Shown here: one piece after another, positions 4,840 through 34,848 of the stretch
How the letters are laid out: each line of letters begins with the position of its first letter
Numbering within the stretch: the stretch's first letter is position 1
Source: Litorilinea aerophila
Lineage (GTDB): Bacteria; Chloroflexota; Anaerolineae; Caldilineales; Caldilineaceae
Length of the DNA stretch: 40,520 nt
Direction of reading: 5' to 3'
NCBI GenBank assembly: GCA_945905745.1
Contig: CAMDQF010000013.1
Location: forward strand, 1 to 40,520
The notes under the pieces: model-generated
Database searches by the model: none
Seen by the model: only the letters and a program-made list of their open reading frames with translations
What the model was told of the DNA's origin: nothing
Program-made: the position numbers and the translations under genes

Positions 4840-4892
4840 GTAGGGCGGAATGGTATTCCGCCCAAAGCAGGCGGAATATCATTCCGCCCTAC
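4840..4892. repeat. Head-to-head pair of GTAG-headed palindromes (REP/BIME-like)
   Basis: GTAGggcggaatggtattccgcc...ggcggaatatcattccgccCTAC: each half is a palindrome and the halves are inverted to each other. Confidence 0.85.
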
Positions 4893-6624: not shown

Positions 6625-6680
6625 GATCTCTTAATTTCCCAATCTCAGGCGCAGAGCAGAGATTGGGAGATTAAGAGATT
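6625..6680. terminator. Long hairpin between convergent genes, possible bidirectional terminator
   Basis: gatctcttaatttcccaatctc / gagattgggagattaagagatt: 22-bp arms with 2 mismatches around a 12-nt loop, between the + SDR gene and a minus gene. Confidence 0.5.
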
Positions 6681-22045: not shown

Positions 22046-22192
22046 GTAGGTTGGGTTGTTTCGGCTGGGGAAATCATCACCCACACGCAAAGATTGTGCC
22101 GAAACAACCCAACACCCAACGCGCATTGTTGGGTTCTCCCGGCGGCCGTTGGTTCGCAGACCACGATTCCTTGCCGGGAGAACCCAACCTAC
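22046..22192. repeat. Composite GTAG...CTAC element with two hairpins (BIME/MITE-like), between the two giant genes
   Basis: Hairpin 1 gttgggttgtttcggc (22050-22065) / gccgaaacaacccaac (22098-22113). Hairpin 2 gttgggttctcccggc (22128-22143) / gccgggagaacccaac (22173-22188). Outer ends gtaggttgggtt (22046) / aacccaacctac (to 22192). Confidence 0.9.
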
Positions 22193-25100
22193 CTTTCCAT
22201 TACCGGCAAGAAAATCCTCTCCACCGGCGGCGCGGTCTCTTCGCTCTGGCTGACGGCTCGGCCCCCGCCGCCGATGAGAGGCAAGAAGAGGGCTGGCTGT
22301 TCGCCACCGATGCCGCCGACGTCGTTGATGACGTCCGCGGCCACAGGGCCGCTGGCAACGGTCAACTGCACATTGGCCGCGTTGTAACCGACGCTGAAGG
22401 ATCGGCTGTCGTCGATGGCCCGGCCCGTCACCACCGGGAAAGTATTCTGCCGGCTGGAGGTAGTCAGAAAAGTAAAGCTGTTGCCGATCGTCGGCGTATA
22501 GGTAGCGCTGCGTTCGATGGCGAGGGTGCCGTCCAGGTCCGCGCTGCCGCTCACGGCGAGACGGCTGTAACTCGTGCCGGGGGTCGTCGTGCCTGCAATT
22601 TCAACCGCCAGCGTGCCGGTGATCGTCTGGGTGTAGCGTCCGGTGATGTCCAGATTGCCGTTGCGGGCGGGCCGCACGATGCCCGCGTTGATCAGGTCGC
22701 CAACAACGTTCAACTCAGCGCCGGCCTGGGCGATTGTGCCGTAGTTGGTGGTAAGACGGGCCTGCACCTGAGTGGGATAGGCCGAGGTGGACCCCAGGCT
22801 ACCGTAATTGATCAGGTGGACATCTGTCGTGTTGTTGATGCCAGCGGCCGTGCTGTAGCCGACAAAACCAGCCGCGCCGACGACGCTGATCCCGCCACCA
22901 ATCGTCAGGCTTGTGGCTGCCTGCGCCACACGCAAGCCATTGTTCTGGCTGCTGGTACAGGCGCTGCTGCGGTTGGGCAGCACTATCGTCGCCGTCCCGC
23001 CCAATGTCTGACTCCCCACAAAGTCCAGCCGTCCATTCTCACAATCCCCTGTCCCGCTGATCCCCAAGCGCACTGTCCCACTCAGCGCCAGCCCGTTTTG
23101 CACTGTCACTACCGCATTGCCCTGACTGTTGCGCCCCACGTTCAGATTGACGCCCTCGAAACTCACCCCGTCCAGACGGCTGTTGCCGTTGATGTATGTA
23201 ATTGTGCTGCCGTTCAGACTGCGCACCACCCCGCCCACCAGACTGCTGTTGTTGAAACGCAGCAGTCCGCTGCCTGTCAACGTCAGCACATTCGTGTTCG
23301 TAATCGTCACGCCGATTACGTCCAGATAGCCGCCTGTCGCTTCCAGTGTGGCGTTGTCATTCTCCCAATGCTGCCCCTGCAAGGCGATCCCACCCGTCCC
23401 GTTGGCGCTTACTTTGCCGCGCAGCACAACGCCGATATCCGTTGTCCCACCCACACCGCTGCTGTAGCCCACAAAGCCATAGTAGCCGTTGACGGTTATG
23501 CCGCGTTCGATGGTTAGGCTTGTGCCCGCCTCCACCACCCGCAAGCCGTTGTCCTGTGAGTCATAACAGGCGCTGCTGCGGTTGGGCAGCACTATCGTCG
23601 CCGTCCCGCCCAATGTCTGACTCCCCACAAAGTCCAGCCGTCCATTCTCACAATCCCCTGTCCCGCTGATCCCCAAGCGCACTGTCCCGTTGACAATCAA
23701 TCCATTGCGCACAGTAACAACGGCATTCTCATTCGTTGTCGTTCCTACATTGAGGGTCGCATCCACCCGCGCGCCGTCCAGCGTGCCGCCGCCGCTGCGC
23801 ACGGAAAGCCCCTGGCCGCCTGTGCCGGCGAGAATTTGCCCGCCCCGAATCGTCCCGCCGTTCAACTCGAAGGTCGTATTGACCTGCACCGGGCCGCCCG
23901 CGTCCAGCAAGCCGCCGCTGTTGACGCGCACGATACTGCCGCTGGTCAGACTGTAGAGTTGTAGTGTGCCCGTGAGAATCAGCGTGCCTTTGCCGCTGGG
24001 GATGACCACATCATCCAGCGGGCCGGGAAGCAGACCGCCGCTCCAGTTGGCCGGGGCAAGGAGATTGCCGTTGGCCGCGCCGATGAAGTTGACCTGCTCG
24101 CGCACGACAATATCGCCCACCGCCGTTGTGCCGGCGCGCACGGCGGGGACCGGCGTGGAACTGCCCTTCAGGTAAACGGTGCCGGAGGGGACGCGGGTAT
24201 CCACACGCAGGCTGCCGATAATTGTGCTGACACCCGCAATGCTAAATGTGCCGTCCCCACCGCTGACACCCGTATAGCCGCCGGTCACAGTAACCGTTGC
24301 ACCGGCTTTCACCCCACCGCTGCCGTCCACCACCCGGCCTGTGACCGTCGTGCCGGGGTCCGCGCCCAGGCTGGCACTGATGTCGAGCGCGACGCCGCTG
24401 TTGCCTTCGGTGTCGGTGACAAGCGCACCGACGGTCAGGCTGCTGCCGCTGGCCGGGACGCTATAGATGAGCGCGTAGGGCGCAGTCGTGTCTGTGCCTA
24501 CTGATGCGCCGTCCACCAGAAAAGTGACCGCGGCCACCCCCGTATCGTCCCCGGCGTTGGCGGTCAGCGTCGTCGTCTCGCCGTGTACCAGCGGATAGCC
24601 AGCCGTGGGGAAGGTGATATTCACCAGCGGGTCGCTGGAGAGGATCACATCCAGACGCAACGAAAGGACAAAAGCCCCGAAGCTGCCAGTCACTCGCCCG
24701 CGGAAACCGCTGGCCGGGTCCACAGCATCCACAGTCACGCCGCCGGGCAGGACGAAGGGCACAGTGTAGACACCCGTCGCATTGCTGGTGGCAGTAAACG
24801 TTCCATTGCTGGCGAGAATATCCAGCGCCGCGTTGGCAATCAGGCCGCCGCCGCTGAAACGCACCACACCAGTCAATGGGCCGCCCGGTTCTACGACGGT
24901 GGCGGTGAAGGGAGCGCTGAGTCCCACATTCCCGCTGGTGTCGGTCACGCGCGCCGTGACGGTCAGGAGGCTGCCCGCGGCCAGGTTGGCTGGGACGGTC
25001 AGGGCAAAGCTCCTACTGGTGGTAGGAGCCGGTGGGGTGATTAAGACGGTCGCTGACGCTCCCGTTTCTGCGTTTTCAAAGCCCACCGATGCCACTTTCA

Positions 25101-28100
25101 CCTCATCCAGGCCGCCGACGGTCAGATTGAGGGTGACGCCCTGCACCACCCGGTTGTCGGGCGGGTTGACGGTCAGCGTCGCGGTTGGGCTGAAAACATC
25201 GCGCACGGGCAATGTAACCGAAGCTACCGGCGAAGTCTGGCCCGCAATGTCTACCGACCGAACCAGGAGCGTCAGCGACTGGTTGCCCGTGGCGTTGACC
25301 GGAATAGTGACGGTGAAAGTCGTCTGGGTGCTGGTCGTCGCCGGACTGACGCCGGTTGAGCCTGTCGAAACCACAACGCCGGAAGTAGTGAGCAGCAGCG
25401 CCGTCACCCCTTCGTTGTCGCTGCCGTCCACGACAATCGCCACCTCTGCGCCGGGATCGACGAGCGTACCATTGGCCGGGCTGGCGATGCTCACCGCCGG
25501 GGCCACCACATCACTGATCAGCAGCGTGCGGGTGATCTGCCCGCTGCTCTGCCCCCGGCTGTCCAAGACCGTCGCGGTCAGGTGCAGCGTACTGTTCAGT
25601 GGCGCGCTGTCGGGCACGCTGACAGTAAAGAGTGGGCTGGTCGTGCGCCCGCCGACGGCAACGCTCTGGCTGGGCGTCACAGCGGGCGAAGCCTCCAACG
25701 TCACACTGGAAAGGCTCAGATCGTCGGTGATGGCGAGGCGCACCTGCACGTCCGCACCCCGACCCACCCGACTGCCGGCGGCGGGGCTGGTGAAGTTGCC
25801 TGTGGGCGGGTTGTCGCTGATGACAGTGAATGTCACCGACGCAGAAGTGCCCAGATTGCCGCTGGTGTCCGTGGCCGTCCCGGTGACAGTGACGATTGTC
25901 CCTGCGTCCACGCTGGCCGGGACGGTAAAGGTGAAGTTGCGGCTGGCGGTCGTAGCCGTCGGACTGATGACTCGGTTGCCATTCGTTTCCACACCTGTGG
26001 ATGCGTAGCCAACCGACGCGATGCCCACTTCGTCAGTGACAGTCAGTGTAACGCTAATGGCGTCGCCCTGCACCACCCGTGTCAGGGGCAGGTTGACCGT
26101 TACTGTCGGGCCAAGAATGTCGCGCACGCGCAGGGTCAGGCTGGCAGACGCGCTGCTGTTGCCTTCCCGGTCTACGGCCACAGATTGGACAGTAATGCTC
26201 TGGTTGCCCGTTGCTGTGACGGGAATCGTCAGGCTGAGCGTCACCGGCGCGCTGGCGTTGGCCGGATCAACCGCATAACTGGTCACACCCGAAATTACAC
26301 CGGTGGCGGTGAAGGTGACTCTCGCCACCGCGTCATTATCCGTCGCCAGAACACTCACATCCAGCGCCGCGCCGGGGTCGTGCAGGCTGTTGTTGGCCGG
26401 ATCGGTGAAGCTGAGGGTCGGCGCGGTCACGTCGCCCACCAGCAAAACGCGCACGGCGCTGGACGCGTAGCCCCGGCTGTCGGTGACTGTTGCCGTCATC
26501 GGCACGCTGCCAAGCAAATCTTCTGGAATATCGAAGACAAAATTGTGGATGGCGCTGGTGCCGGTGAGAACCACGGCGGGCGGATTGCCAATCCGCCCTA
26601 CGTCAAAGGAGACGGCGCTCAGGCTCAAATCGTCAGTCAAGGCAACAGTTACCGTCACCCGCTGGCCGGGGCCGAACTTTGCCCCCTCAGCCGGGCTGGT
26701 GAAGACGACACCCGGCGGCATATCGGCCAGAACCGCGAGCGTCAGCGAGCTGCTATTCCCCACATTGCCGCTGGTATCCGTGGCGACGCCGGTCACAAGC
26801 AGTTGACCCGGTGTGGCGTCCAGCGCCGCGCTGATCGTAAAGGTGCGGCTGGCGCTGGCGGATACCGGTGTGACGCCGGTCACTGCACCCTCCCCAAAGA
26901 CGCCGCTAACGCCGAAGCCGATGTGGGCCAAGCCGATGTCGTCGGTTGCCACGACAGTCACGGTCAGACTGGTGCCCTGAATAATGGACGGACTGACAGT
27001 CCGTCCTACAACGCTGACGGCGGGCGGTACCACATCCCGCACCCGCAGCGTGCGGGTGACGGGGATGGAGAGGTTGCCTCTTGTGTCCTGGCCGCGCAGG
27101 GAAAGGGTGACAATCCCGTTGGACGGCGCGTTGGCAGGAATCGGCACAGCAAAACTTGCCGCTGCGTTTGTCTGGGCAGGGGAGACCGTCCGCTGGTCAG
27201 CGAAGGTAGCCGCGCCGGAGGCAGAGAGGGTAATGAGGGAAAGACCGTCCACATCCACCGCCTGCACTGGGACGTTCACCGTCTCGCCCGGCGTGACAAG
27301 CGTATCCTGCGCCGGGCTGACGAAGAGCAGTTGCGTGCCGGTGACGACTACCGTCCATTGGGCGAAGTTGCTCACCTGATTTTTGCTGTCGGCGGCGCTG
27401 GCCTGGAGTGCGATGAGGCTGCCCAACGACGCGTTGGCGGGCACAACGACGACAAATGTGCGGGAGACGGTCTGGCTGGATGGGTCAATTGTGGCGGCAA
27501 AGGTTGTGTTGACACCACCCGTACTCTGGGCAAAGAGACGGCTGACCGCCAAATCGTCGGTGGCCTGCACGGTGACACTGAAGGGGTAGCCAACTTCGAC
27601 GGTCGTTGTCAAGGGCGAAAGGAGCGTAGCCACTGGCGGCGTGTCGTCCAGAACAGAGAGCGCCAGCCCCGTGTCCGGGCTGACGTTGCCGGCGTTGTCG
27701 GTAGCCCGCGCCGCAATCGTCAGCCCCGGCCCCATCCCCGCCTCCACCTGCAAGAGCAGTTCGTAGGGGGATTGGGTGTCGCTGCGCCGCAACGCGCCGT
27801 TGACGTAGAAATCCACCTGGCGGATGTCGTCGTGGCCGACCGCAATCTGGGCCGTAGCGATGAGACTCTCGCCCACAATCACCGATGGGCTGCGGCTGCT
27901 GCTCAGGCTGGCGATGGCGGGCGGGATGATGTCCAGGCTGGTGAAACTGAGATTCTGTCCGGCAGGCTGGGTATTCCCGGCCCGATCCGTGGCGGGTAAA
28001 ATCGTGGCGCTGTAGACGGCGTTGGGGGTCAGGGGCGCGTTGGGCGTAAAGACGATCACGCCGTTGTTCTGGATAAAGTCCAGGCGACCAGCGACCGGCG

Positions 28101-31100
28101 ACCCATTTCGGAAAAGTTGGATGGCGGACGCGGGGAAGGCAGCCGGGTTGAGTGCCTCCGAGTATTGCGCCCGGATCACCGACTCCAGCGCCACATTCAG
28201 CGCGTTGTGCGCCGGGCTGAGGCTGGTGAGGCTGGGCGGCGTTGTGTCCTGGGTGGTGAAGCTGCTCACAAATTCGGCGATCAGCGCCTTACCGGAAAGG
28301 TCTTTCACACCGGTCTTGACTTTGACGTTCACCGTCGCAAAATCGGGATAGACAGTGGAAGGTGTAAATGTAAGCTGGCTGCCTGTCCCATTCAACACCC
28401 GATTTCCAGAGAGGAGTGCGCCACCCGCACTGACTTCAACAGTGGAAGCGCTGATTGTCGCCGGGTTGACCGCCTCGGAGAAGACAATCGCAATCGTGCG
28501 GGTGACAGGCTCGCCGCTGCTCCCGTTGGCCGGTGTCACACTGACAACCGTTGGGAAGCTCTCGTCCAACACCAGATCGCCCACATCCACAATTTGACCC
28601 TGGCTGGCGACGGTTGCGCTGCCGCTGGCTGTGCCGCTGCCCAGCGGGTCTTCCACGCCAATCGCGTATATGCCCAGCGGCAGATCGGCGAAGCTGAACA
28701 GACCGTCGCTGTCGCTGACGCCGTAACGTTTGACGCTGCCTTTGCTCAGTGTAATCGTCACGTCCGGCGCAGGGGTCGTGCCATCCTCGCGCAGAACGCG
28801 ACCCTTGATCGAACCGGCGGCTTGCAGCGTGATAGTTACTTGTGACGTACTTCCAGCGGCAAGCAGACTTCCATAAGCCGAACCGCCCAGCCCGCTGGTC
28901 TGGTTGCGCGCGCTGACGCTAAAATCGCCGATGAGTAGATTGTCAAACCGGAATGTGCCATTGGGCGCAGCCAGAATTTCGTCGTTGTAGCCTACGGGCA
29001 GATTGCTCTTGCGCTGTAGCTTCACCTGTGCGGAGCTGACGGGGTTGCCGCCGCCGTCCAAGACGAGACCGGTCACGCTCCCCGTACCCAACATCTGCAC
29101 GGGCACAGTCACGACTTCCGTGTGGAAGGTGACCGTGCCCGTGCTGCGCCCGGCGTCGCCGCCCACCTGGGCCAGGGCGGTCACAGCGAAGCCGCCCAGA
29201 GGCACATTCTGCACCTGATAGAAACCGCTGGCGTCCACTGTCGTGGAGCGGGTGGTGCGGGCGTAGTGTACCTCCACCTGTGCGCTGGTGGAGAGGCTGC
29301 CGTCGGCCAGTGTCACAAAACCCTCGACTGTCCCTCGCTCAGGCACGGCCAGCGTCACAGTTTTGGTGACGATCTGTCCTTCGCTGGCAAGAGTACCGTT
29401 GACGCTGCCGCTCCAGCCGGTGGGCCTGTGCGAGGCGGAGAGGTTGAAATTGCCGGCATTGACGCCGGGGAAGGCAAAGCTGCCGTCCAGACCGCTGGAT
29501 GTGTAGAGATCGTCACTGTCGTTGGAATGCAGACGCACAGTCGCTCCCGCCATCGCCGCCCCGGTCAGACTCTCGACGACGTAGCCGCGCACTTCGCCCT
29601 GCGGTCGCTCGCGGATGTCAACGGTGACGGTCTGCCCATTGACAGTAATCGCGCCGCTGGCGTATCCCTCGCGCCCGCTGATAAAGTCGAAGGCGTCCAG
29701 CGTAAAGCCAGCTTTGGGCACACCGGTAAAGCTGTAGACACCGCTGGCGTCCGTCGCGCCGTAGACATCCCGCCCGTCAAAACTGCTGGTCAGATGAATC
29801 TGGGCGTCGGCGATGGGGGTCGTGCCGTCGGCGCGCAGGAAGCGCCCCTGGACTGTGCCGAATTCGTCAGGCACGGTAATCGTGACTGTGACTGTTTCGC
29901 CCGGCGCGGGGAGCGTGCCGCCGCGGAAGCCTTTACCGCCGTTGGCCGGGTTGGTGGCGTGGACGCTAAAACCGCCTTCCCGCACCACCGGGAAAGTGAA
30001 ATTGCCGAGAGCGTCGGTCTGGCCCGTGCGGCTCTCTTTTGTAAAGTTGCCCTCGCGCAGAAGCAACGGCGCATTGGCGATAGCCGCGCCTGTCGTGCCC
30101 ACAACTCTGACAGCCACACTGCCCGTGCCCAGCAGTCGAATGTCCACCACCGCGTGGCTGCCCGCTTTGACGCCACCATCGCTGCGCCCGGTCAGCCCGC
30201 TCGCATCCAGGGCGGTGACATTAAAATTGCCTGCGCTGATGAGGGTGACGGCATAAACACCGTTGGCATCGGTCGTCACGGCCACATCGTGCATTGTGCC
30301 GGAATTGAAACGCACGACGACACCCTCGCCCACGGGCGTCACCCCATCGGGCAGATAGACGCTGCCACTGAGCGAGCTAGTGGCCTTGAGGGAGAGGGTA
30401 ATGTATGTGGTGTCGCCCAGACGAACTTCGGTGCTGCCAGCCACGTGGCCGTTGAAGGCGTTGGCCGCTTCCACCGCCACCGGCCCCACAAAGATATTCT
30501 CGAAGAGATAAGAGCCGCTGGCGGGGTCGTTGTCCACAATGCGGCTGAGCTGTTTGGTCATAAAGCCGACGCCAATCGTCTTGCAGGGAGTGAAGTGGAC
30601 CACATAATCACCGATCTTCACGTCCTGGTAGCACTGGGGGTTGCCGTCGTCTAGAATCTTGTTTTTGAGTACGACCAATTCGCTCAGACCCACTTGCGCG
30701 GCCAGCGGGGTGATGCCGTCGTCGTCCAAAATTGTCACACGCAGGCTGCCCACGCCCTGCCAGCGAATGTCGCCGTTGACCGTCTGGTTGTGGGCCGAGA
30801 CGCGCACGGAGCGGGCGTTGCCATCTTTGAAATCGGGCTTGAAGGCGCTGAGCAGATACTCCCCCTCCACCGCATAGGGGATCAGGTAGCGACCGTTGGC
30901 GTCGGTGCGGCTGCCCAGCAGCTTCGGGCCGACGGCGATGATCTCCAGATTGGGCACCGGCGTCACGCCGTCGGCTTGGGTGACGCGGCCGGCGATGCGC
31001 CCGACCGCGGGCAGACGCAGGGTGACAAAGACTGTCTCACCCGCCCGTACCAGATTGACGAGTGTCTGAACGAGCAGTTCGCCTTCGCTCACAAACGCCT

Positions 31101-34100
31101 GGATGCGCCGCTGGCCCAAAGGCATATCGGAAATGACAAAGCGGCCATCGGCGTCACTGTTCGTCAATTGCAGACCGCCGGCAATCGTCGCCCCTTCCAC
31201 CGACTGGCCTGCGCCGTCCAACACCTGCCCCTCAATCGTGCCCGTGCCGCCGAAGAGAATGAGATTGGCGGTCACGTCTTGCCCTGCCAAAATCGTCGTG
31301 GCCACGACGGCCGTCTCGAATTGGCTCTGATCGAAGGAATTGACCTCCACTGGGCCGGGGGGCAGAGCGGTGAGCTGGTAGTAACCGCTGCTGTCGGTGA
31401 GGGTGTAGCCGCCTTTGTTGGCATAGACAGCTACGCCCTCAGCGGGGGTCACGCCGTCAGCGCGGTAGACCCGCCCGCTGACGCTGCCCATCTCGCGCTG
31501 CACCCGATCCCTATTGATGAGGATCAGATCGATCAGCGTCGTCCCGCCGTCCGCGGCCACATTGGCCACGGCCTGGGCCTGGGAGCGGGTGGGCAGGTGG
31601 ATGGCTTCCAGATTGGCGTTGCCCACGGGCACACTGCCAAAGACAAAGCCGCCGCTGGCGTCGCTGGTGGTGATCTGGGCCACGCCGCTGGACAGACTGG
31701 TGAGGCCCACATCCGCGCCGGGCAGGGGCGTCACCCCGTCGGCGGCGAAGACGTGGCCGGCAACGGTTCCCTTGCCCTGAAAAATGAGCTTCAGGTCCAG
31801 GCGCTGGCCGTTGTAGCGAATTTGGGTTGAAAGTTCGGCCCGCGCGCTGCTCTCCGGATCGCTGGATTTGAAGATCGTCGGGTAGCTTGCCACGTAGTCG
31901 AAATGAAAATAGCCTTCGGCATCGGCGGATTTTGACGTAATTATCACCCATTGGATTTTGTCGCCGGCCAATATTTTCTGGACCAGTTGGATGGGTGCAT
32001 TGGGCACGGCTTCCCCGTCGGCCTGGACAACCTGCCCGTCCACCACACCGCCCATACCGGTGACGGTGATGGTGATGGGCAGGGTGACGGTGACGGGCGT
32101 CATCGGGTTGGCGTGGCGGTCATCGATATTGGCAACGGTCAACGTGCGGGGAATGAAGGGGCCGATGCCGTCGCGCAGACGGATGAAGGCCACCCGATTG
32201 CTGGGCTGAAGGACAGTCCCCAGCACCTGATTCTCGTCCACGCCGAAATTGACGATCTCTTCCGGCGTCTTGCCCTGCTGGGAGGCAGCGGCGCTGATCT
32301 CCTCGTCGAAAAGGACAGCGAGCAAGCGGCCAAAGCCATCCCGATTCGCGACTTGCACGGCACTGATCACATCCGGGCCGCTTTCGGGCAGGAGCGCGTC
32401 GCTGCTGGGCGCAATCTGCCCCTCGAAGAAGCCGTCGCCGTTGGCGTCCACATTCAGCACAATTTCGTGGGAGGAGCGGTTGCGCCCCGTATCGTAGACG
32501 GGCGCGGACAATTGGGCGCGCCCGCCGTTCTGGATGGCGACATCCGCAAAAGTGACCAGCCGCTGGCTGCCGGTGATGGGCATCAACACGCCCAAATCAA
32601 AGCTGCCATCGGCCACGCCAGTCAGGTCTACTGTGTGGCGGCCCGGCTGGGGCGCGGCGATGAGTGCGAAGTGGCTATAATTGCCCACTTCACCGCCCAA
32701 ATCAAAGAACTGGCCGTAGGGGATGGAACGCTGGATGGGCGCGCTGGCGCTGGCAATGCCCATCTGCTTGCCTGCCGGGTCTGTTACCTGCAGGACGACC
32801 GGCCCGCCGCCCGCGTCCTGCCCCACAATCACCGAAAAATGGGGCGGGCGAGAGACAGTGGCCGCCGCCATACGCTCTTGAAAATTCAGCACGCTGCTGC
32901 CCGCCACTGCCTGCCCAAAGACCGCGGCGAACTCCCGCGCCAACGCCTCGCCCCGGCGGGACTTGCGCATCAGTTGGTCAAAGGCGGCGAAATCGTCGGC
33001 GCTGACGCCACTCGCAGGCGTCAAGCGCGAAAGATTGTTGCTGGAAAAATCCAGGGCCAAATCCCAGGCAGCCGAGAGTTCCGGCTCGAAGAGGCTGATG
33101 CGCTGGCCCACCGCGGCCAGATCAAAGGCCCGTTCGTAGATCATCGCCTGCTTCACAGGCAGCAGGCCGATGGGGACAATCGGCGAAGTGGCCAGGGCGA
33201 AAGCCTGACTGAGCAGGCTGATAGCCTCGGCACGGATGCCCGCCGGCACGAAGTTGACCTCGCCAGGCATTTGCAGCACATTCGGGGAAAGGGGGATGCC
33301 CAACTCGCCCACGTCCATACGGAACTCGAATTTGCCCGGCGTATTTTCCGAAGCTAGGCTGCTGGCGACGACAGAGCCGGTCAGCAGCGCGCGCAGACGG
33401 AAGGTGGCTGTGGCCGAGTCGCCGGGGAGAATCGTATCGATCTGCACCCTTTCGTCGGAGAGCAGTTGCGCACCGGTCAGGCTGCGCGGCAGCAGGGAGA
33501 GGGTGGCGAAGTTGGCGGGCACATCCGAGATGTTCGTCACAGTGACGTGGAAATCGTAGTCTTCGCCCTGGTTGATCGTCAGCGGGTGGTTGAAGGTGAG
33601 GGTGAACTGGGGATCGCGCACTTCCAGCGTACCGACAGCCTTGCCTACGATGGCGACGGGGCCGGTGGGCAGGCCGTACAACTGGCCACTGATCTCAATC
33701 TCGACGGTGTGGATGCCTTCACGCAACCCTTCCACCAGAAATTCTGCGTTGCCGTCGTTGCCGGGGGCCAGGAAGGGGATGTCGTCGGCTGTGCCCAGCT
33801 CGCCGTCCGGGCCCGGCTGGACGACAGACAAGATTTTGGGCTGGAAGGCGGGCGGGTTGCCCAGGCGGGCCATACGCAGGGGATCGTCCTGTGAGCCGAC
33901 GACGCCATCTTTGCCGCCGGGCAGGAGAATCTCGCCCTGAATGTCGCGCACCACCAGATTCGATGTGCCGGGCGCGATATTGGAAACGAGCAGCAGCGCG
34001 CTGAAATACTGGTTGAGATAGGCGATGCGGCCAGGGAAAAGGATGACACCGGGCACCTTCGCCACCAGTTTACGCGTTTCGGGGTCGCACTCGCTGGCGC

Positions 34101-34848
34101 AATCCATCTGAAAGCCGGAGATGCCCAGGCTGGTGTACTCCAATGCGGGCGATTGGAAGACAACAGTCTCCAGTTTTTGCTGCGGCAAGCCACCGATGCC
34201 AGGTTTGAAAGTGATCTGGCGCGGCGGCAGGTCCGCCTGTCTGGGCAGCAGCACCGGAAAGGTGATGGGGACTTTCTTGCCCTCCACGCCGATGGCGACG
34301 GTGAAATCAACGGCTTTGTAGTTCTCCTCGTCGAAGAAGATGCCCTTTTCTTCGATTTCGTCTGCACTGAGGGCACGGGTCGTCACCTGCGAAACAATCA
34401 CTTTGTCGATGACTTCGATGCTGACACTGCCCGGTTCGCCCTGCAAAATCGTCGCGCCGCCGCTCTCCACGCGGATATTCTCGACGACGTACAGCCCTTT
34501 GAGCGGGATGGGCGGGATCATCAGCAGTTGACCGGGCAAGCCGGTCAGTTCGATGGCGGTCTGGAAGGCAGGCCCGCGCATAGAGGCGCGCACCACCGCG
34601 TCATCCGGCAGGCTGGGCAGCCCGCCCACCGACGGGTCCGAAGCGACGACGTTCATCCGAATGCCGGTGGCCGTGTGTTTGGGCACAGTCTGGTGGATGG
34701 GATCGGGCAACAACTGCGCGCCCAGCACGTAAATCGTCTCTTGCGTCAGAGGCGCAGGGGGCGACGCTACTTGCGCCAGGGCGGGCGTGACAGTCGCGGC
34801 GAGGAGGAGAAGGGCGAGAAGGAATTGGGCGAGCCTTTGTTTACGCAT
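22189..34848 (-). CDS. 4219-aa giant secreted protein: signal peptide, about 13 consecutive carboxypeptidase-regulatory-like domains, Big_5-like domains, Ig-like domains in higher-order repeats, beta-solenoid-like C-terminal region, C-terminal FLP motif
   Basis: MRKQRLAQFLLALLLLAATVTPALAQ; many units of G-x-V-x-G-x-V-x-x-x-D-G-x-T-P; PPTVVSVTPANGSSGEPVTRTIAIVFSEAVNPATI; ends VERIFLPVMER*. Start overlaps the upstream stop (TAATG). Confidence 0.9.
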   Translation of the reverse strand: MRKQRLAQFLLALLLLAATVTPALAQVASPPAPLTQETIYVLGAQLLPDPIHQTVPKHTATGIRMNVVASDPSVGGLPSLPDDAVVRASMRGPAFQTAIELTGLPGQLLMIPPIPLKGLYVVENIRVESGGATILQGEPGSVSIEVIDKVIVSQVTTRALSADEIEEKGIFFDEENYKAVDFTVAIGVEGKKVPITFPVLLPRQADLPPRQITFKPGIGGLPQQKLETVVFQSPALEYTSLGISGFQMDCASECDPETRKLVAKVPGVILFPGRIAYLNQYFSALLLVSNIAPGTSNLVVRDIQGEILLPGGKDGVVGSQDDPLRMARLGNPPAFQPKILSVVQPGPDGELGTADDIPFLAPGNDGNAEFLVEGLREGIHTVEIEISGQLYGLPTGPVAIVGKAVGTLEVRDPQFTLTFNHPLTINQGEDYDFHVTVTNISDVPANFATLSLLPRSLTGAQLLSDERVQIDTILPGDSATATFRLRALLTGSVVASSLASENTPGKFEFRMDVGELGIPLSPNVLQMPGEVNFVPAGIRAEAISLLSQAFALATSPIVPIGLLPVKQAMIYERAFDLAAVGQRISLFEPELSAAWDLALDFSSNNLSRLTPASGVSADDFAAFDQLMRKSRRGEALAREFAAVFGQAVAGSSVLNFQERMAAATVSRPPHFSVIVGQDAGGGPVVLQVTDPAGKQMGIASASAPIQRSIPYGQFFDLGGEVGNYSHFALIAAPQPGRHTVDLTGVADGSFDLGVLMPITGSQRLVTFADVAIQNGGRAQLSAPVYDTGRNRSSHEIVLNVDANGDGFFEGQIAPSSDALLPESGPDVISAVQVANRDGFGRLLAVLFDEEISAAASQQGKTPEEIVNFGVDENQVLGTVLQPSNRVAFIRLRDGIGPFIPRTLTVANIDDRHANPMTPVTVTLPITITVTGMGGVVDGQVVQADGEAVPNAPIQLVQKILAGDKIQWVIITSKSADAEGYFHFDYVASYPTIFKSSDPESSARAELSTQIRYNGQRLDLKLIFQGKGTVAGHVFAADGVTPLPGADVGLTSLSSGVAQITTSDASGGFVFGSVPVGNANLEAIHLPTRSQAQAVANVAADGGTTLIDLILINRDRVQREMGSVSGRVYRADGVTPAEGVAVYANKGGYTLTDSSGYYQLTALPPGPVEVNSFDQSQFETAVVATTILAGQDVTANLILFGGTGTIEGQVLDGAGQSVEGATIAGGLQLTNSDADGRFVISDMPLGQRRIQAFVSEGELLVQTLVNLVRAGETVFVTLRLPAVGRIAGRVTQADGVTPVPNLEIIAVGPKLLGSRTDANGRYLIPYAVEGEYLLSAFKPDFKDGNARSVRVSAHNQTVNGDIRWQGVGSLRVTILDDDGITPLAAQVGLSELVVLKNKILDDGNPQCYQDVKIGDYVVHFTPCKTIGVGFMTKQLSRIVDNDPASGSYLFENIFVGPVAVEAANAFNGHVAGSTEVRLGDTTYITLSLKATSSLSGSVYLPDGVTPVGEGVVVRFNSGTMHDVAVTTDANGVYAVTLISAGNFNVTALDASGLTGRSDGGVKAGSHAVVDIRLLGTGSVAVRVVGTTGAAIANAPLLLREGNFTKESRTGQTDALGNFTFPVVREGGFSVHATNPANGGKGFRGGTLPAPGETVTVTITVPDEFGTVQGRFLRADGTTPIADAQIHLTSSFDGRDVYGATDASGVYSFTGVPKAGFTLDAFDFISGREGYASGAITVNGQTVTVDIRERPQGEVRGYVVESLTGAAMAGATVRLHSNDSDDLYTSSGLDGSFAFPGVNAGNFNLSASHRPTGWSGSVNGTLASEGQIVTKTVTLAVPERGTVEGFVTLADGSLSTSAQVEVHYARTTRSTTVDASGFYQVQNVPLGGFAVTALAQVGGDAGRSTGTVTFHTEVVTVPVQMLGTGSVTGLVLDGGGNPVSSAQVKLQRKSNLPVGYNDEILAAPNGTFRFDNLLIGDFSVSARNQTSGLGGSAYGSLLAAGSTSQVTITLQAAGSIKGRVLREDGTTPAPDVTITLSKGSVKRYGVSDSDGLFSFADLPLGIYAIGVEDPLGSGTASGSATVASQGQIVDVGDLVLDESFPTVVSVTPANGSSGEPVTRTIAIVFSEAVNPATISASTVEVSAGGALLSGNRVLNGTGSQLTFTPSTVYPDFATVNVKVKTGVKDLSGKALIAEFVSSFTTQDTTPPSLTSLSPAHNALNVALESVIRAQYSEALNPAAFPASAIQLFRNGSPVAGRLDFIQNNGVIVFTPNAPLTPNAVYSATILPATDRAGNTQPAGQNLSFTSLDIIPPAIASLSSSRSPSVIVGESLIATAQIAVGHDDIRQVDFYVNGALRRSDTQSPYELLLQVEAGMGPGLTIAARATDNAGNVSPDTGLALSVLDDTPPVATLLSPLTTTVEVGYPFSVTVQATDDLAVSRLFAQSTGGVNTTFAATIDPSSQTVSRTFVVVVPANASLGSLIALQASAADSKNQVSNFAQWTVVVTGTQLLFVSPAQDTLVTPGETVNVPVQAVDVDGLSLITLSASGAATFADQRTVSPAQTNAAASFAVPIPANAPSNGIVTLSLRGQDTRGNLSIPVTRTLRVRDVVPPAVSVVGRTVSPSIIQGTSLTVTVVATDDIGLAHIGFGVSGVFGEGAVTGVTPVSASASRTFTISAALDATPGQLLVTGVATDTSGNVGNSSSLTLAVLADMPPGVVFTSPAEGAKFGPGQRVTVTVALTDDLSLSAVSFDVGRIGNPPAVVLTGTSAIHNFVFDIPEDLLGSVPMTATVTDSRGYASSAVRVLLVGDVTAPTLSFTDPANNSLHDPGAALDVSVLATDNDAVARVTFTATGVISGVTSYAVDPANASAPVTLSLTIPVTATGNQSITVQSVAVDREGNSSASASLTLRVRDILGPTVTVNLPLTRVVQGDAISVTLTVTDEVGIASVGYASTGVETNGNRVISPTATTASRNFTFTVPASVDAGTIVTVTGTATDTSGNLGTSASVTFTVISDNPPTGNFTSPAAGSRVGRGADVQVRLAITDDLSLSSVTLEASPAVTPSQSVAVGGRTTSPLFTVSVPDSAPLNSTLHLTATVLDSRGQSSGQITRTLLISDVVAPAVSIASPANGTLVDPGAEVAIVVDGSDNEGVTALLLTTSGVVVSTGSTGVSPATTSTQTTFTVTIPVNATGNQSLTLLVRSVDIAGQTSPVASVTLPVRDVFSPTATLTVNPPDNRVVQGVTLNLTVGGLDEVKVASVGFENAETGASATVLITPPAPTTSRSFALTVPANLAAGSLLTVTARVTDTSGNVGLSAPFTATVVEPGGPLTGVVRFSGGGLIANAALDILASNGTFTATSNATGVYTVPFVLPGGVTVDAVDPASGFRGRVTGSFGAFVLSLRLDVILSSDPLVNITFPTAGYPLVHGETTTLTANAGDDTGVAAVTFLVDGASVGTDTTAPYALIYSVPASGSSLTVGALVTDTEGNSGVALDISASLGADPGTTVTGRVVDGSGGVKAGATVTVTGGYTGVSGGDGTFSIAGVSTIIGSLRVDTRVPSGTVYLKGSSTPVPAVRAGTTAVGDIVVREQVNFIGAANGNLLAPANWSGGLLPGPLDDVVIPSGKGTLILTGTLQLYSLTSGSIVRVNSGGLLDAGGPVQVNTTFELNGGTIRGGQILAGTGGQGLSVRSGGGTLDGARVDATLNVGTTTNENAVVTVRNGLIVNGTVRLGISGTGDCENGRLDFVGSQTLGGTATIVLPNRSSACYDSQDNGLRVVEAGTSLTIERGITVNGYYGFVGYSSGVGGTTDIGVVLRGKVSANGTGGIALQGQHWENDNATLEATGGYLDVIGVTITNTNVLTLTGSGLLRFNNSSLVGGVVRSLNGSTITYINGNSRLDGVSFEGVNLNVGRNSQGNAVVTVQNGLALSGTVRLGISGTGDCENGRLDFVGSQTLGGTATIVLPNRSSACTSSQNNGLRVAQAATSLTIGGGISVVGAAGFVGYSTAAGINNTTDVHLINYGSLGSTSAYPTQVQARLTTNYGTIAQAGAELNVVGDLINAGIVRPARNGNLDITGRYTQTITGTLAVEIAGTTTPGTSYSRLAVSGSADLDGTLAIERSATYTPTIGNSFTFLTTSSRQNTFPVVTGRAIDDSRSFSVGYNAANVQLTVASGPVAADVINDVGGIGGEQPALFLPLIGGGGRAVSQSEETAPPVERIFLPVMER
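22959..23079. repeat. 121-bp direct repeat, copy 1
   Basis: caggcgctgctgcggttgggcagcactatcgtcgcc...ccccaagcgcactgtccc reads identical to 23568-23688. Confidence 0.9.
23568..23688. repeat. 121-bp direct repeat, copy 2
   Basis: Identical by eye to 22959-23079; offset 609 bp (203 codons, in frame). Confidence 0.9.
26578..26601 (-). repeat. GTAG-headed palindrome inside the coding sequence (translated VGRIGNPP)
   Basis: Minus strand GTAGGGCGGATTGGCAATCCGCCC: 10-bp arms around 1 nt. Confidence 0.8.
26986..27009 (-). repeat. GTAG-headed palindrome inside the coding sequence (translated VGRTVSPS)
   Basis: Minus strand GTAGGACGGACTGTCAGTCCGTCC: 10-bp arms around 1 nt, with paired substitutions relative to 26578-26601. 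Confidence 0.8.

Follow-up and report, generated by a model that had tools for sequence, protein, structure and literature searches.

In-frame GTAG-headed REP elements in a giant Ig-like repeat protein and other genes of a Caldilineaceae genus

The two short palindromes that are read as protein in a giant surface-type bacterial protein of this genome belong to a dispersed family of GTAG-headed REP elements, and this family is almost restricted to one genus of Caldilineaceae (Chloroflexota). We put at nearly nine in ten the probability that copies of these REPs have spread within the genus, are tolerated in genes and later decay there. The evidence comes from the window, i.e., the whole stretch of 40,520 nt that was analysed, from its own genome (G000) and from related Caldilineaceae/Anaerolineae genomes of Chloroflexota.

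REP elements in the window

The gene concerned and its two elements are as follows.

22189 to 34848, minus strand: open reading frame of 4219 aa with Ig-like repeats, holding both in-frame REPs (from the ORF listing and orthologues)
26986 to 27009, minus strand: REP copy 1 (site 1), GTAGGACGGACTGTCAGTCCGTCC, read VGRTVSPS, in an Ig-like domain (exact template match, phase 0)
26578 to 26601, minus strand: REP copy 2 (site 2), GTAGGGCGGATTGGCAATCCGCCC, read VGRIGNPP, in the next Ig-like domain (exact template match, phase 0)

The initial annotation had described two GTAG-headed palindromes at 26578-27009, read in the same phase and with compensatory changes in the stem. Both 24-nt palindromes were found on the coding strand with 0 mismatches to its template, for which shuffled sequence gave a mean of 0.01 matches with up to three mismatches allowed, and both start on the first base of a codon in the 4219-aa frame. 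Taken alone as a single strand, each folds into a hairpin whose 9-bp stem closes a 3-nt loop, at -10.4 and -9.9 kcal/mol and with z near -5. Pfam Big_7 lies in the region of site 2. A structure model of the two Ig-like domains (mean pLDDT 83, three-row alignment) places the peptides in predicted loops: that of site 1 lies mostly in the turn following the first strand, and that of site 2 where an edge strand ends.

A third REP locus of the window, absent from the initial annotation, is an inverted pair between genes.

4840 to 4863, plus strand: intergenic REP, left half of the inverted pair (REPIN/BIME-like), an inverted-repeat arm with 1 mismatch to the annotated template and exact for the wider pattern
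4869 to 4892, minus strand: intergenic REP, right half of the pair, an inverted-repeat arm with 2 mismatches to the annotated template

Unrelated to the REP is a further inverted repeat of 21 nt, ATCTCTTAATTTCCCAATCTC, whose halves are 12 nt apart, at 6626-6679 of the window.

Copies, covariation and distribution of the family

A search of the 6.4-Mb own genome with a wider template, GTAGGNCGGANTNNNANTCCGNCC, returned 75 exact matches (36 + 39), and the reversed pattern returned none. The paired stem changes noted at the two sites hold genome-wide, since 57 of 61 copies were Watson-Crick at each of the two variable pairs, with three pair types at each position and an expectation of only about 22 and 21 of 61 if the two sides of the stem were independent. 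Among 61 genomes, six of the seven species in the genus have the REP family, as do 2 of the 54 other relatives, one from the same family and one from the same class. Matches in G002, G003 and G005 number about 480. The matches, the covariation and the distribution carry the marks of GTAG REPs, namely a GTAG head with a short palindrome, many dispersed and mostly intergenic copies, a palindrome maintained through paired stem changes, and inverted pairs (REPIN/BIME) both at 4840-4892 of the window and at many places elsewhere; the window palindromes are therefore members of this class.

An artefact of assembly or binning, or palindromes arisen by chance, could be considered because the own genome is a MAG-like assembly of 436 contigs with about 7% contamination (the compared genomes are likewise MAGs, with contamination of 2-9%). 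However, the shuffles and the reversed control gave essentially no matches, which rules out chance palindromes, and independent genomes share in-frame REPs at identical helicase and GT4 sites. Such an origin is refuted for the REP family, and we give it a negligible probability.

Orthologous sites with and without the element

Orthologues of the 4219-aa protein were found in G002, G006, G010, G011 and G020, with a fragment in G004; those of G002 and G006 are 79% and 77% identical to it over about 4200 aligned residues. Both window REPs are absent at the orthologous sites of G002 and G006, a comparison which the initial annotation had proposed and which came out in its favour. Both flanks of site 1 are conserved, and the REP codons of G000 (GTA GGA CGG ACT GTC AGT CCG TCC) are matched by eight unrelated codons in the sisters (TAAGNATT / TAAGNATS; ACC GCC GCA GGC AAC GCG ACA ACT in G002 and a close version in G006), so that 24 nt stand for 24 nt and the net change is 0 nt. 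At site 2 the REP-free sisters are one codon longer, the eight REP codons standing against nine native ones (net -3 nt). The annotation had called the palindromes inserted; this wording is not upheld, because at both sites they stand in place of native codons of about equal number and the REP-free orthologues reveal no net insertion. G002 has a REP of its own at codon 3139 of its orthologue, again in the VGR phase and with a net gain of 12 nt, at a place where G000 and G006 carry none; the native GTGGGTCGG of G000 at this place matches the REP head in 8 of 9 bases. The G006 gene contains no REP. With two copies in G000, one elsewhere in G002 and none in G006, this protein gains and loses REPs across the genus, and every copy lies in the same phase.

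This variability bears on the idea that the palindromes are functional in the gene, as an mRNA hairpin or as a DNA site bound by a protein or gyrase, rather than tolerated passengers. The stability of the hairpins would suit such a role, as would the predominance of intergenic copies, where REPs are thought to affect mRNA or supercoiling (PMC3733652), but the position in the gene is not conserved among G000, G002 and G006, and the copies in another gene, a methyltransferase, decay in some species. We regard a function of this kind as improbable.

Cross-species series in other genes

Some dozen further genes in related Caldilineaceae species have REPs in frame, among them those of a helicase, a GT4 glycosyltransferase, a phosphorylase, methyltransferases, a PKS and a prolyl oligopeptidase. 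A DEAD-box helicase carries a REPIN read as VGRTxSPTG(E-S)RTxSPTY in G000, G001, G002 and G005; it is absent from G006, which has EESLARPSGANY, and from the readable outgroup orthologues (the G017 row was left out), where the loops are unrelated and vary in length. The net gains are +12/+21, and a low-confidence model predicts the peptide as coil between two helices (pLDDT <50). In the GT4 gene the REP core is present in G000, G002, G003 and G005 and lacking in two species and in six outgroup genomes. The stretch in whose place it stands is of constant length in seven of the eight REP-free orthologues; among the REP-bearing genes, those of G002 and G003 keep this length, and those of G000 and G005 are shorter by one codon. 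A clean tree of presence and absence was sought for this site; the combined tree leaves the four REP-bearing species ungrouped and is compatible with a single gain followed by losses, with transfer and with repeated gain.

The loop of the glucan phosphorylase reads VGRIGNPP in G005, is occupied by a different G+C-rich stretch in G000, and is short in G001, G004 and G006; the net gain in this gene is about +48. In the methyltransferase loop G003 has a single fresh REP and G005 a cluster of them; G001 and G002 hold decayed copies (18/24 and 19/24 matches, against a mean elsewhere of about 12), and G004 and G006 are without any. The corresponding loop of G000 was tried as a further decayed copy and scored 15/24, within background. 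In locus L205 (G005:C74, 1440-1600) a REP is flanked on either side by a copy of about 45 nt of host coding sequence, which the G003 orthologue (L252) has only once; the net gain is +72, with duplication of the flank. This arrangement resembles a long flank duplication. For the DNA-methylase gene, close homologues were limited to G002 and G003, so that the search for a close empty site found none. Nowhere among the compared sites was there a clean gain of 24 or 27 nt between two intact flanks.

This repeated absence of clean insertions points to REP DNA taking the place of host DNA of much the same length, for instance when short single strands anneal at the fork. How the elements arrive is a question within the preferred reading of spread and tolerance, and two routes were weighed. 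The first is a clean 24-nt insertion followed by deletion of about as many flanking codons, with selection on loop length. Known intragenic REPs (PMC3733652) and the Rickettsia elements (PMC2229807) are described as insertions, and net gains do occur at the G002 Ig site, the helicase, the phosphorylase and L205; against it stand the absence of any clean +24/+27 event and the equal length of GT4 in REP-bearing G002 and G003 and in nearly all REP-free orthologues. Since the sister species are already 20-25% diverged at protein level in the Ig gene, a compensating deletion may have a place in this history, and we hold the route to be plausible, at somewhat less than an even chance. In the second route REPs overwrite: a single-stranded copy would be annealed or template-switched into a replication gap, exchanging a stretch of similar length, much as oligonucleotide recombineering exchanges rather than inserts. 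We regard this second route as tentative and rather unlikely; if true, it would explain the many in-frame survivors inside genes.

Census of in-frame copies and reading frames

The census drew 214 distinct REP sites from six genomes; 199 of them were scorable, that is, not near a contig end. A site was called in-frame coding when the one open frame running through it had good codon usage on either side; resting on this score and on open frames, the coding calls are certain only for genes aligned to orthologues. By this measure 20 of the 199 sites (about 10%) are in frame inside ORFs, six more weakly so, and 148 are intergenic. L184 and other cases at ORF starts were scored as doubtful.

With each gene site counted once and one doubtful ORF start left out, the frames used were VGRT/I in 11 cases, RSD in 2 and the third frame in 1. 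The excess of VGR over RSD (11/13 events in the two open frames, two-sided p about 0.02) would fit the view that VGRTVSPS and VGRIGNPP are selected protein loops in which the DNA palindrome is incidental. Against this view stand the covariation of the stem genome-wide and mostly outside genes, the unrelated sequences in orthologous loops, and the use of other frames in other genes (RRSDWQSDP in GT4, GGLPIRPT in an O-antigen-ligase-like gene). The genome-wide copies make it unlikely in any case, and we consider it very improbable.

In L012, L061, L087 and L177 the TAG of the GTAG head ends the frame of the upstream gene, so that the REP supplies the stop codon. In L095 (G002:C90:19000-23700, 1832-2624) tandem units of paired REPs, VRRTVSPTANPTGLSDERSDYQSDLRDWATQPAESATPA, with a run of N between them, lie in a 1566-aa open frame, which we take to be a DUF4157-like protein; here the REPIN is turned into a protein repeat. 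Another repeat, with tandem CCCCAATC/CCCCAGTC units, was seen in many places (23 in the examined loci, including L123 near codon 138), and in the glucan phosphorylase it is in frame and read as NPQSPIPNPQSP. Other in-frame G+C-rich, repeat-like peptides are HLPSPGTGEGPGVGV in the G000 phosphorylase (L297) and PFPPSPAGEGSGVRV in the G003 PKS (L224); these genes carry REPs in the same or a sister species.

RAYT genes

The initial annotation had proposed to look for a Y1_Tnp (RAYT-type) gene in the genome, and six are present (L031-L036), none having this REP within its 1.5-kb flanks. A cognate RAYT adjoining the REPs was sought at these six loci; all of them adjoin other repeats instead, so that several REP-like families may coexist in the own genome. 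A REP-flanked RAYT was located only in sister G002 (L170, C393), directly beside a cluster of GTAC/GTAG REP copies, and its protein is 48% identical to that of L036. RAYT action on REPs is known biology (PMC8266576), and we infer the mobiliser here, as no REP-flanked RAYT was found in the own genome. The RAYT gene of L170 neighbours a DNA methylase gene with two in-frame REP sites, and G003 has an expanded version of this arrangement (L234).

Discussion

Our results are best accounted for by REPs that spread within the genomes of the genus, most probably aided by RAYT (Y1_Tnp) proteins. The surviving copies are mostly intergenic, and the genic survivors preserve the frame and sit in flexible loops. 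Their length of 24 or 27 nt is a multiple of three; one frame of three meets the TAG of the GTAG head, and the two others give soluble peptides, VGRTxSPT(Y) or RSDxQSDL. Rare landings in genes would be retained where frame and loop permit and be neutral for the protein. At the window sites the REP stands in place of old loop codons at the edges of Ig-like beta-sandwich domains, which may have come about by a step that exchanged DNA rather than added it. Over time substitutions would erode the palindrome of the genic copies and leave ordinary coding sequence.

Intragenic GTAG REPs are an already known kind of element, reported inside ORFs of several species in BMC Genomics in 2013 (PMC3733652). 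In that paper, intragenic dimers code for 20-30 residues and clusters for 43-82, and the REP TAG serves as a stop codon. Shared with the present family are the GTAG head, the short palindrome, the singlets, dimers and clusters in ORFs of unrelated proteins, the use of TAG as a stop, the mostly intergenic copies and the RAYTs in many carriers. The paper deals with other species (Verrucomicrobia, Proteobacteria and others), its main text treats the sites as insertions, and in the parts consulted we found no multi-species series of codon-for-codon exchange. The REPIN/RAYT systems of Pseudomonas and Escherichia (PMC3116915, PMC8266576) likewise have GTAG-type REPs, inverted pairs and the Y1_Tnp family in the genome; in P. 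fluorescens SBW25, however, only 14 of 1067 occurrences of the core 16-mer overlap genes (PMC3116915), against the roughly one-tenth of the sites sampled in the present genus that are in frame inside ORFs.

The initial annotation had further likened the elements to Rickettsia palindromic elements, which are in-frame palindromes reviewed in PMC2229807 and PMC3733652. Tolerance as protein loops stood up, given the copies, the absence in orthologues and the Y1_Tnp genes, and both systems have a palindromic repeat that is tolerated in conserved genes, where it is translated in frame as extra peptide; the term 'inserted' did not stand. The class in PMC2229807 measures 105-146 bp and lives in an intracellular parasite, whereas the Caldilineaceae elements are GTAG REPs of 24-57 bp; the Rickettsia elements are described as insertions, whereas the sites compared here show no clean net insertion. 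The Rickettsia sequence families of about 100-150 bp do not include a 24-nt GTAG REP, so the analogy holds for function and mode and not for membership.

What appears to be new is the lineage, the REP-free orthologous sites, the succession of gain, shift and decay, and evidence that speaks against a simple insertion. Together they give a multi-species record of REPs entering, shifting within and decaying inside working genes, in which mobile DNA read as protein can be tracked stepwise. Whether REPs spread by insertion or by replacement becomes a testable question, and REPs are seen to supply bacterial proteins with new loop sequence.
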